Shown here: piece by piece, positions 58,408 through 64,000 of the stretch
Layout: each line of letters starts with the position of its first letter
How positions within the stretch are numbered: position 1 is the first letter of the stretch
Source: Shimia aestuarii
GTDB lineage: Bacteria; Pseudomonadota; Alphaproteobacteria; Rhodobacterales; Rhodobacteraceae
DNA: 64,000 bases
Assembly (NCBI RefSeq): GCF_900114635.1
Contig: NZ_FOTQ01000001.1
Location: forward strand, 1,426,001 to 1,490,000
Reading direction: 5' to 3'
Made by a program: the position numbers and the translations under genes
Notes under the pieces: generated by a model
What the model was told of the DNA's origin: nothing
The model's database searches: none
Seen by the model: the letters and a program-made list of their open reading frames with translations, nothing else

Positions 58408-59003
58408 TTTGGCAGCTCTCCCTGCAAGGTCAGATAGGACAGTATTTCAACAAGGGGCATCCCGAGAACCGTAAAATAGTCGCCATCGACTTTTTCGAAC
58501 AACCGCACCCCTTCGGCCTCAAGCATGTATCCGCCAACACAGTGCTGAATCTCGTGCCAATTGCGATCTAGGTACTGGTCAAGATAGGCGTCGCTGAACT
58601 GACGCATGAACAACCGCACCACGCCGACAAACCGCCAGAGCGGCTCTCCGTCGCGATAAATCACCGCGGCGGACAACAGCATGTGCCGCTGTCCCCGAAG
58701 CCGCTGCAACTGTGCCCGCGCGTCTTCGGGATCGCGTGGTTTGGACAAGACCTCGCCCTGAAAATCCAGCACCTGATCACAACCCAGAACCAAGGAACCG
58801 GGCCGTTTCCCACTCACTTTACGCGCCTTGGATTCCGCCAGCGCATCGGCGATTTCACGCGGCGCTGCCCCCTCCGCCTCAAGCGCGCGGCGGATCATGT
58901 CTTCGTCGACGCGCGCCGTGACAACATCAAAGTCAACGTTGGCGTTGCGCAGCAGCTGTGCCCGTATGGACGAGCTCGAGGCAAGAACAAGTTTTGAAGC
59001 CAT
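58404..59003 (-). CDS. maf: Maf family nucleoside-triphosphate pyrophosphatase
   Basis: 199 aa. LVLASSSSIRAQLLRNANVDFDV, ESKARKVSGK, LVLGCDQVLDFQGEVLSKP and the ALGMPLVEIL-like end (TVLGMPLVEILSYL). A house-cleaning pyrophosphatase for non-canonical or modified nucleotides. Its start codon overlaps a perfect DnaA box; first gene of the leftward maf-aroE-coaE-dnaQ operon. Confidence 0.92.
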   Translation of the reverse strand: MASKLVLASSSSIRAQLLRNANVDFDVVTARVDEDMIRRALEAEGAAPREIADALAESKARKVSGKRPGSLVLGCDQVLDFQGEVLSKPRDPEDARAQLQRLRGQRHMLLSAAVIYRDGEPLWRFVGVVRLFMRQFSDAYLDQYLDRNWHEIQHCVGGYMLEAEGVRLFEKVDGDYFTVLGMPLVEILSYLTLQGELPK

Positions 59004-59011
59004 GTGGATAA
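59003..59011 (-). promoter_or_regulatory. Perfect DnaA box at the maf start
   Basis: TGTGGATAA, the exact complement of TTATCCACA, beginning on the last base of the maf start codon complement. Confidence 0.65.
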
Positions 59012-59184
59012 TCCCGTGGACAAGCGTAGGAGTTTCTTAAGCATTCTTTCTGGAAAGTTAAGGCAAGTTTCGCGACTTGGGGGAAGTCCTTCGATCTCAC
59101 GCGCCGTCAGGCTTTTTCTGCACAGTGGACGGGGATAACTTTGTGTTGTGGATTGTCTGACAAGATACCGTTTTGCTTACAGCT

Positions 59185-59193
59185 TTATCCACA
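59185..59193 (+). promoter_or_regulatory. Perfect DnaA box in the candidate origin
   Basis: TTATCCACA, an exact match to the strong DnaA-binding consensus, 12 bases before the first AT-rich stretch. Confidence 0.7.
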
Positions 59194-59422
59194 GAGGAAT
59201 CGGTGAAGATATTCGTTTTTAGTGTTTTATTTCATAATGTTATTAGATCACTATGTAATCCATCCCGTGCTCGATCAATTTCTGTCCAGACGTGGACAGC
59301 CCGTGGGACAAACCATTAATCCACGGCTTCGGCGCTCCCAACATAATCATCATCCTTTTCTATATATCTTTATTTATTTAAGAGGGGTCAGGTTCGCGCA
59401 GAGACAATGAGAGCAAAGAAAC

Positions 59423-59993: not shown

Positions 59994-61265
59994 ATGACAC
60001 AAGAAAAACTCGCTCTGGCCGATCTCAAGGCTAAAAGCCCCAAAGACCTTCTGGCGATGGCCGAAGAGCTCGAGATCGAAAACGCCTCGACCATGCGCAA
60101 AGGCGAGATGATGTTCCAGATCCTGCGGGAACGCGCGGATGAAGGCTGGGAAATCTCGGGTGAGGGCGTGCTTGAGGTGCTTCAGGACGGCTTTGGCTTC
60201 CTGCGCTCGCCCGAGGCCAACTATCTGCCTGGTCCTGACGATATCTATGTTTCGCCTGAGATGATCCGCAAACACTCACTGCGCACCGGTGACACCATCG
60301 ACGGTGTGATCAAGGCGCCTGAGGATACCGAGCGGTATTTCGCGCTGATGAACGTCACGCAGATCAACTTTGAAGCGCCCGAAAAAGCGCGCCACAAGAT
60401 CGCGTTCGACAACCTCACCCCGCTTTACCCCGATGAACGCCTGAAAATGGAGATCGAAGATCCCACCATCAAGGACCGCTCCGCCCGCATCATCGACCTG
60501 GTCGCGCCCATCGGTAAAGGCCAGCGTTCGCTGATCGTGGCTCCGCCGCGGACGGGTAAAACTGTTCTTTTGCAGAATATCGCCCACAGCATCGAGGCCA
60601 ATCACCCCGAATGCTATCTGATCGTTCTGCTGATTGACGAACGACCCGAAGAAGTCACCGACATGCAGCGTTCTGTGAAGGGTGAGGTTGTGTCTTCGAC
60701 ATTTGACGAGCCCGCCACTCGCCACGTTGCAGTCGCCGAAATGGTGATCGAAAAGGCCAAGCGCTTGGTCGAACACAAACGAGATGTTGTAATCCTTCTC
60801 GACTCGATCACCAGACTTGGTAGGGCCTTCAACACCGTGGTGCCATCCTCGGGCAAGGTTTTGACCGGTGGTGTGGACGCAAACGCATTGCAGCGCCCCA
60901 AGCGTTTCTTTGGTGCCGCCCGTAATATCGAAGAGGGTGGGTCGCTGACCATCATCTCGACCGCACTGATTGATACTGGCTCGCGAATGGACGAGGTTAT
61001 CTTTGAAGAATTCAAGGGTACCGGTAACTCGGAAATCGTTCTGGATCGCAAGATCGCGGACAAACGTGTCTTCCCAGCGATCGACATTCTGAAGTCCGGT
61101 ACGCGGAAAGAAGACTTGTTGATTGATAAGGTGGATCTCGCGAAAACCTTCGTTCTGCGCCGCATCCTCAACCCGATGGGCACGACCGATGCTGTTGAGT
61201 TCCTGCTTTCGAAACTCAAGCAAACCAAGACCAATTCCGAGTTCTTTGACTCGATGAACACCTAA
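59994..61265 (+). CDS. rho: Rho, transcription termination factor
   Basis: 423 aa. RNA-binding cold-shock-like domain ([30 protein letters not shown]), P-loop VAPPRTGKT, Walker [17 protein letters not shown] and the Q/R-loops. Hexameric RNA helicase. A 121-base leader separates it from hemJ; mnmE starts 12 bases after its stop, so rho-mnmE-mnmG is probably one transcript. Confidence 0.97.
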
Positions 61266-61277
61266 GGGTTCACCGCG

Positions 61278-62576
61278 ATGGCCTATGTGCCAGACACAAT
61301 TTTCGCTTTGGCAACGGCCCCCGGTAAAGCGGGGGTCGCTGTCGTTCGTGTGTCCGGTTCTCATGTCAAAGAGGCCGCTGCGGCATTGTTTGGCGAACTT
61401 CCGACGCCCCGCATGGCGTCCTTGCGTCTGCTGAAGGATCGCGAAGGGCGGCGTCTGGATCAGGCGCTTGTGCTATATTTCCCTGAAAAGAACAGCTTTA
61501 CAGGCGAAGAAGTGCTCGAACTGCACCTGCACGGATCGATTGCTGTGGTCAACGCGGTGCTGCGCGAACTCTCCGATCTGGACGGACTACGGCTAGCAGA
61601 AGCAGGGGAATTCACCCGCCGCGCGCTTGAAAATGGCTGTCTCGACCTGGCCCAGGTCGAAGGGCTTGCCGACCTGATCGATTCCGAGACCGAGGCGCAG
61701 CGGCGTCAGGCCTTGCGTGTCCTTTCCGGCGATCTTGGCACCCTGGCCGGGGGCTGGCGAGAAAACCTGATTCGCGCGGCTGCTCTTCTCGAGGCCACGA
61801 TTGATTTCGCCGATGAAGAAGTTCCCGTCGACGTCTCGCCTGAAGTGCAAGGTTTGCTCCAATCGGTTCGTGCCGAACTGGCGACCGAAATTGCTGGCGT
61901 AAACGCGGCAGAGCGCATTCGAACAGGTTTTGAGGTTGCCATTCTTGGCGCCCCAAACGTCGGCAAATCCACGCTTCTCAATGCTTTGGCGGGGCGCGAG
62001 GCGGCGATTACCTCGGAATATGCTGGCACAACTCGCGATGTGATCGAAGTGCGTATGGATCTGAATGGTCTGCCCGTGACGCTTCTCGACACCGCTGGTT
62101 TGCGCGACACTGACGACCACGTCGAATGGATCGGCATCGAACGGGCGCGCCAACGTGCCGAGGCCGCCGATCTGCGTGTCTTCCTAGTCGAACAGGGGCA
62201 ACATCCTGACTTTGAACCGCTGCCCGGTGATGTTATTCGTGCAGCCAAGGCGGATATGCTTGAAAACGATGCCAATGCGATTTCCGGAAAAACGGGGCAG
62301 GGGATCGCTGCGCTGGTCGACGAGATCACGGAAAAGCTCTCGGAACAGGCCGGGCGCTCTGGCATCGCCACCCGCGAACGCCACCGCGTGGCGATGAGCC
62401 GGGCCAATGACAACCTCGCTGCAGCCGACGCGGTGCTTGCCTTGGGACCGGATCACTACGAGATTGCCGCCGAAGAACTGCGCAGCGCGATTCGGGCTTT
62501 GGATTCAATTGTCGGTCGCGTAGATGTCGAGAACCTGCTGGACGAAATCTTTTCGAGCTTCTGCATCGGTAAGTAA
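61278..62576 (+). CDS. mnmE: MnmE, tRNA U34 modification GTPase
   Basis: 432 aa. N-terminal folate-binding domain ([20 protein letters not shown]), helical region, an inserted G domain with [16 protein letters not shown] and [10 protein letters not shown], and the C-terminal catalytic Cys motif SSFCIGK. Forms a complex with MnmG to make the cmnm5U wobble modification. The next gene, mnmG, begins 12 bases after the stop. Confidence 0.96.
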
Positions 62577-62580
62577 GGAG

Positions 62581-62596
62581 TGTTTCACGTGAAACA
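62581..62596. other. Perfect parS centromere-like site over the mnmG start
   Basis: TGTTTCACGTGAAACA, an exact 16-bp match to the ParB-binding parS consensus and a perfect palindrome. Its central GTG is the mnmG start codon, and the ribosome site AAGGAG is just upstream. It is about 3.4 kb from the candidate oriC. Confidence 0.92.
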
Positions 62597-64000
62597 TTTT
62601 GACGTCATTGTTGTTGGCGGCGGACACGCCGGTGCCGATGCGGCCCATGCTGCGGCGCGGTTAGGGGCGCAAACAGCCCTTGTTTCATTGAAGAAATCCG
62701 GAATTGGTGTGATGTCCTGCAACCCGGCGATCGGCGGCCTTGGCAAAGGCCACCTTGTCCGGGAAGTCGACGCGCTGGATGGTGTCATGGGGCGCGTGGC
62801 CGACAGGGCAGGCATTCAATTTCGCCTTTTGAACCGCCGCAAGGGTCCTGCCGTTCAAGGCCCTCGGGCTCAGGCAGACCGCAAAATCTACCGGAACGCA
62901 ATGCTCGCTGAGATATTGTCGACGGAAAACCTTACAGTGATCGAGGGCGAGGCCACGGATTTCCGCATGGTGGGCGATGCGGTGCGCGGCGTTCTTCTTT
63001 CTGACGGATCAGAGATTTCGGCGCAGGCCGTCGTCCTGACGACGGGTACATTCCTACGCGGCGTCATTCATATTGGTGATGTGTCTCGCCCTGGCGGCCG
63101 CATGGGGGACGATCCTTCTGTCAAACTCGCTCAGCGCATCGACAGCTTTGACTTGCCGCTTGGCCGGCTGAAGACAGGCACGCCACCGCGTCTGAATGGC
63201 AAGACAATCAAGTGGGACTTCCTCGAATCCCAGCCGGGCGACGAAGACCCTACGATGTTTTCGTTCCTCAATGACAAGCCATTCGTTCGGCAAATCTCCT
63301 GCGGTATCACCCATACCAACGAAAAAACGCATGACATCATCCGAGAAAATCTCTCTCGATCGGCGATGTATGGTGGCCATATCGAGGGCGTCGGACCCCG
63401 TTACTGTCCCTCGATCGAGGACAAGATCGTTCGATTTTCTGACAAAACCTCACACCAAGTCTTCCTGGAACCCGAAGGTTTGGATGATGACACGGTCTAT
63501 CCGAATGGGATCAGCACATCTCTGCCGGAAGATGTTCAGGAAGATTATGTCCGGTCGATCTATGGCCTTGAAGAGTGTGAAATTCTCCAACCCGGCTATG
63601 CGATCGAATACGACTATGTTGACCCGCGAGCGCTTGACGCATCGCTGGCGGTCAAATCTGTTCCAGGACTATATCTTGCGGGACAAATCAACGGAACCAC
63701 AGGATATGAGGAGGCGGCAGCGCAAGGTCTTGTCGCTGGACTGAATGCGGCCCTGTCGGCAAAAGGGCAGGAGGCGCATCATTTTAGCCGTTCGGACAGC
63801 TATATCGGTGTCATGGTCGATGACCTGATCACACGCGGCGTCACCGAACCCTATCGCATGTTCACGTCCCGCGCCGAATTCCGTCTGTCTCTACGTGCCG
63901 ACAATGCTGATCAGCGACTTACTCCAATTGGGATTGATCTCGGGCTTGTTGGTGAAGACCGCAAGCGCGTATTCGGAGAAAAGGCAGAACGTTTGGCCGC
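62589..64000 (+). CDS. mnmG: MnmG (GidA), tRNA U34 modification enzyme (partial)
   Basis: 470 codons visible from a GTG start, open to the window edge; full-length proteins are about 620 aa. FAD-binding [17 protein letters not shown] near the N-terminus, [49 protein letters not shown] and [20 protein letters not shown]. With MnmE it installs the carboxymethylaminomethyl group at U34. It begins inside a parS site, with codons 1-3 written by the parS sequence. In relatives rsmG-parA-parB follow, so parAB is expected just beyond the right edge. Confidence 0.96.

Follow-up and report, generated by a model that had tools for sequence, protein, structure and literature searches.

According to the available part of its published account, the ParB protein of the alphaproteobacterium Hyphomonas neptunium binds, in EMSA, the exact 16-mer that is the subject of this work (PMC6650430). 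In mycobacteria, as far as the accessible portion of the report goes, two perfect parS sites precede parB by ~1-2 kb; of the pair in M. bovis BCG, one overlaps the -10 element of a gidB promoter and the other falls in the coding region of parA, and the authors propose effects of the mycobacterial parS on transcription or on parA translation (PMC2346475). In the part of the literature on Thermus thermophilus that was available, parSc is placed inside gidB (rsmG), in its coding sequence, a short distance upstream of parA (PMC4409726). The presence of parS inside gidB or parA, or over a gidB promoter, is already in print in the available sections of these papers (PMC2346475, PMC4409726); the available portion of the main text of PMC6315104 contains no mention of gidA or gidB.

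The window, by which we mean the whole stretch of 64,000 nucleotides analysed here, belongs to contig C18, one of the 27 contigs of a draft genome of 4.23 Mb, and on it the genes follow one another in the order rho, mnmE, mnmG, rsmG, parA, and parB (Table 1). An earlier note on this DNA had stated that 16 of its bases match the ParB-binding consensus exactly. This was confirmed, TGTTTCACGTGAAACA being the sole match at ≤3 mismatches in a motif scan of the 64-kb window. With up to 2 mismatches allowed, the whole genome yields two sites and no more; both are perfect matches, and they lie on contig C18, 1,905 bp apart (the reversed pattern, used as a control, gave one match per strand at ≤2 mismatches); the second one lies inside rsmG, downstream of the mnmG site, and is translated there as VSRET. 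The starts of parA and parB are ~2.5 kb and 3.3 kb away from the mnmG parS, respectively, and both parS sites are located 0.6-3.3 kb from the starts of the two genes and near the probable oriC, which is the clustering that the same note had proposed to look for. Three features that distinguish a chromosomal parS are found here: the 16-bp palindromic consensus is matched exactly by TGTTTCACGTGAAACA, the genomic sites (2/2) are clustered by parAB and the origin and not scattered, and the gene for a cognate chromosomal ParB is present in the same genome.

Table 1. Position of the features discussed in the text (coordinates of the window, unless another locus is named).
Feature	Position	Strand	Basis or remark
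parS TGTTTCACGTGAAACA	62581..62596	.	perfect palindrome; exact match; same place within 2 mismatches in 143/145 family loci
Likely GTG start codon of mnmG, centre of parS	62589..62591	+	SD spacing; ATG there in 4/141 family loci and in G054
Alternative in-frame GTG, overlaps SD; less likely start	62580..62582	+	frame reading
Shine-Dalgarno (SD) AAGGAG	62575..62580	+	8 nt before central GTG; overlaps mnmE stop codon (62574-62576)
mnmG (gidA)	62589..64000, continues beyond window end	+	TIGR00136, E 1.1e-210
mnmE	61278..62576	+	NF003661, E 3.5e-162
rho	59994..61265	+	TIGR00767, E 1.7e-206
parB	L003:7889-8779		TIGR00180, E 5.4e-61
Probable oriC	59004..59422	.	maf/hemJ divergent gap, two DnaA boxes, GC-skew switch; oriC reading is an inference

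The gap shared by maf and hemJ, two genes pointing away from it, is probably oriC. This is suggested by the divergent orientation of the two genes, by the DnaA boxes TTATCCACA, whose only two exact copies in the window are found at 59003-59011 (spanning the left edge of the gap) and 59185-59193, and by the GC skew, which switches sign between ~58 and 62 kb. The DnaA-domain match is located on contig C16 and not at the maf/hemJ gap. The distance from the probable oriC to the mnmG parS is 3.2-3.6 kb.

The conservation of the site was analyzed in a set of 150 genomes of the Rhodobacteraceae, one per genus code, 145 of which gave a usable mnmG start (the five without one, G026, G063, G093, G106, and G120, were dropped). 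A site within 2 mismatches is present at the mnmG start in 143/145 loci, 131 of them exact, a count that, like the Fisher probability given below, overstates the number of evolutionary events because related genomes are non-independent samples. The figure combines 141 of the 142 loci recognized with the first motif and two (L128 and L149) of the three that the first motif had missed and that were added through a laxer one, the third being L148. All 143 carriers have the central NTG in the mnmG frame. Two loci depart from the rule: L124 (G054), discussed below, and L148 (G016), where the centre of the site falls 101 nt before the GGGHAG motif, resembling the arrangement of other families. In a plain search for the 16-mer with 1 mismatch allowed, 146/150 family genomes gave one site or more, most of them exactly two; the reversed pattern matched in 1/150. 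The named relatives, a set of 80 mnmG loci partly overlapping the 145-locus set (the contigs of L239 and L276 have the same lengths as those of the G104 and G073 loci), gave the same picture, with a site within 1 mismatch in every locus (80/80, 76 exact) and GTG in 79 and ATG in one of them; the nearest are Shimia, at 84-88% identity. The 16 parS columns carry 1.8-2.0 bits of information and the flanking columns go down to 0.05, although the conserved coding positions around GGGHAG are also high in the family alignment. The second codon of mnmG is AAA in 140/141 family loci, despite a preference for AAG in the remainder of the same genes (1270 AAA vs 1665 AAG). The conservation beyond codon use, whose check had also been suggested in advance, is therefore observed, and the predicted overlap between parS and the mnmG start is a trait of the Rhodobacteraceae.

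The downstream site shows a similar persistence. Among the 141 family loci long enough to reveal it, it is present within 2 mismatches in 136, and in the other five it was not found within the fetched downstream stretch. It is translated as VSRET in 132/136 loci, and an RsmG motif follows further on in that frame in 101/136, the remainder including short stretches or cases for which the motif was too strict. When the inner 14 bases were compared in the loci having mnmG and rsmG sites both within 3 mismatches (186 pairs), both sites deviated in 5, only one of the two in 7 and 3, and 171 pairs showed no deviation (Fisher p 2.3e-5, uncorrected for relatedness). Thus, deviant mnmG sites tend to go with deviant rsmG sites. 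In three of the five doubly deviant pairs, the same inner variant occurs at both sites, i.e., CACATG in G104 and G025 (in the latter with opposite orientation at the two sites) and CGCGCG in G244.

This last genome belongs to another family (L175, L334, and L316); both its parS-like sites read TGTTTCGCGCGAAACA, and the helix-turn-helix of its ParB has KSRPH instead of KSRSH, in a stretch that presumably corresponds to the recognition helix. SRSH is kept in 16/18 of the ParBs compared. A switch of ParB specificity in G244 is possible on these grounds; recognition-helix changes tracking the variant sites were suggestive in this one case only.

G054, one of the two family genomes without the site at the mnmG start, deserves separate mention. 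No parS within 1 mismatch was found in this genome (97% complete), nor was a ParB by protein or Pfam search of it, and the only parA-like match is a weak one of 51 residues. Its rsmG-like gene (L332) lacks the VSRET stretch and is directly followed by unrelated genes, with no parAB-like gene there. Its mnmG begins ATG AAA CAC, at the codon matching the central GTG. Judging from this one genome, the loss of parA and parB and that of the two parS sites seem to have gone together in G054. A different case is that of G260, from another family, which has two sites and in which ParB was not found, possibly owing to an assembly gap.

In other families of the class, 69 mnmG loci from a set of 115 genomes were examined and 66 entered the tally (L166 and L213, which failed the laxer motif, were left out). 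A parS-like site within 2 mismatches occurs in the 300 nt upstream of GGGHAG in 50/66 loci (36 exact). In 4/66 its centre lies in the mnmG frame and leads into the gene without a stop, but each of these has a closer ATG, and 61/65 of the mnmG starts in these families are ATG, a count that partly reflects a start rule favouring this codon. An overlap of a different type was noticed in L195 (G174, another family), where the likely ATG of mnmG takes its A from the final base of a perfect parS. On the MnmG tree (FastTree, 212 proteins), built from the GGGHAG motif onward so that the start region is excluded, the presence of parS at the start needs three changes. Of the single splits, the best one (support 77) comprises all the carriers but L147, a divergent row with 59% identity, and includes L124. 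The tree would fit a single capture and a loss in L124, with L147 as an unplaced row.

On the whole, we consider it very probable that the 16 bases represent a working chromosomal parS whose central GTG also initiates mnmG, with selection acting on both the DNA and the mRNA. This reading builds on the position of the site, its frame, its conservation, its co-variation with the rsmG site, and the joint loss of parABS and site in one relative. It is further favoured by the small number of genomic sites, two in all, perfect and next to parAB, and by the in vitro binding of the exact 16-mer by Hyphomonas neptunium ParB (PMC6650430). In this organism, ParB would bind the mnmG parS, which would be the loading site for the protein encoded 3.3 kb downstream, and the mnmG and rsmG sites together might act as a small centromere beside the origin. 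As to the origin of the overlap, a single capture may have taken place in an ancestor of the Rhodobacteraceae, in which an mnmG start and a separate upstream parS would have merged. From then on, the requirements of ParB on the DNA and of the ribosome on the mRNA would have jointly frozen the sequence: translation would fix the frame together with the SD that immediately precedes it, and ParB would fix the 16 bases, so that the GTG start and the AAA second codon would be forced. The occasional ATG at the mnmG start need not mean that ParB binding was lost, since CACATG is also found in the rsmG sites of other families. ParB spreading from the site might affect the expression of rho-mnmE-mnmG, as the earlier note suggested. 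One might go further and imagine that ParB loading at the mnmG start, or its hindrance by transcription/translation, couples the segregation of the origin to the expression of MnmG and of rsmG-parA-parB; we regard this idea as doubtful. If it were true, tRNA modification, rRNA methylation, and ParAB levels would follow the state of the centromere across the Rhodobacteraceae.

A point that requires attention is the identity of the start codon. The earlier note took the central GTG as the start of mnmG and considered this codon only, but parS contributes the TG of one NTG and the whole of another, 9 nt further down in the same frame (xTG TTT CAC GTG). Translation might then begin, alternatively or additionally, at the upstream one, which overlaps bases 1-2 of parS, and parS would encode residues 2-6 (FHVKH) of the protein. 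The upstream triplet is GTG, ATG, or TTG in 136/141 family loci, and in 72/141 the central codon is preceded, at 15 nt, by an in-frame stop, leaving few other choices. The first of these frequencies is nevertheless to be expected: parS opens with TG, and any preceding A, G, or T yields an in-frame NTG at that distance from the central GTG. The position of the SD speaks for the central codon. In the window, the GTG at 62580 overlaps the SD and is for this reason the weaker candidate; among the 140 of 141 family loci in which the script located an SD, 81 share one aligned spacing, which amounts to 7 nt from the central codon and to -2 nt, i.e., an overlap, from the upstream NTG. Moreover, in 2/141 loci, the in-frame stop leaves no ATG/GTG/TTG/CTG besides the central NTG, the central GTG has become ATG in 4/141 loci by four separate changes on the MnmG tree, and G054, apparently devoid of parABS, begins mnmG precisely there. 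An upstream start thus seems to us unlikely. The marks of an initiation site, namely a start codon in the frame of MnmG (TIGR00136), a proper SD spacing, and a conserved position, are found at the central GTG; its role as the mnmG start codon is well supported but not proven by these sequence comparisons, and the earlier assignment stands, the central GTG being the best-placed candidate.

Much less credit can be given to the idea that the 16-mer is conserved solely as coding or mRNA sequence, either as an initiation hairpin or as a protein N-terminus, and not as a ParB site, which we judge highly improbable. It is true that the palindrome can form a 6-bp stem in the mRNA (-3.9 kcal/mol for the 16-mer), its loop falling at the start codon, that the predicted fold of the window pairs the SD as well, and that, in comparison with 65 starts of other families, the family loci have a somewhat more accessible start codon and a somewhat less accessible SD (p ~0.02 each). 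However, the predicted fold of the start region in the window is not unusually stable (z -0.9), and a search for a longer RNA stem revealed, in one table, no clear pairing pattern at the flanking bases (palindrome positions 0 and 17). Above all, the same 16-mer is read in a different frame in rsmG and is found upstream of mnmG in other families, and for this reason coding or RNA constraints are rejected as the main cause of its conservation; in addition, the mnmG site co-varies with the rsmG one and is missing along with parAB in G054. Finally, a chance match is ruled out, in agreement with the opinion already expressed on this DNA, by the shuffled window, in which 0.26 matches are expected at ≤3 mismatches, and by the exact-match expectations of 5e-6 to 1.5e-5 per window and 3.5e-4 to 1e-3 per genome.

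If the central GTG of parS does initiate mnmG, one short sequence would serve two machines, ParB on the DNA and the ribosome on the mRNA, in 143/145 of the family genera examined, and the overlap would account for both the GTG start and the AAA second codon of mnmG in this family. The four GTG to ATG changes, the paired changes of the sister sites, and the lineage without parABS might be regarded as natural experiments, and gene callers should beware of the alternative mnmG start 9 nt upstream. No account of a parS acting as a start codon, that of mnmG included, was found in the literature searched, which did not extend to the survey of Livny et al. 2007, reportedly a survey of parS sites.

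A comparison with the systems described so far helps to place the Shimia locus. The parSc of Thermus, on the available part of its description, is the counterpart of the second (rsmG) site of Shimia; unlike Shimia, Thermus has a single site, with none described at an mnmG start (PMC4409726). In mycobacteria, which belong to a different phylum, the parS sites overlap, in the accessible portion of the report, a promoter and an internal coding stretch, and not an initiation codon, as is likely in Shimia (PMC2346475). Hyphomonas neptunium, in the section of the account that was available, which makes no mention of an mnmG start in this connection, has the identical 16-bp parS and two perfect sites upstream of parAB by the origin; the difference from that account is that, in Shimia, mnmG probably starts at the centre of the site (PMC6650430).
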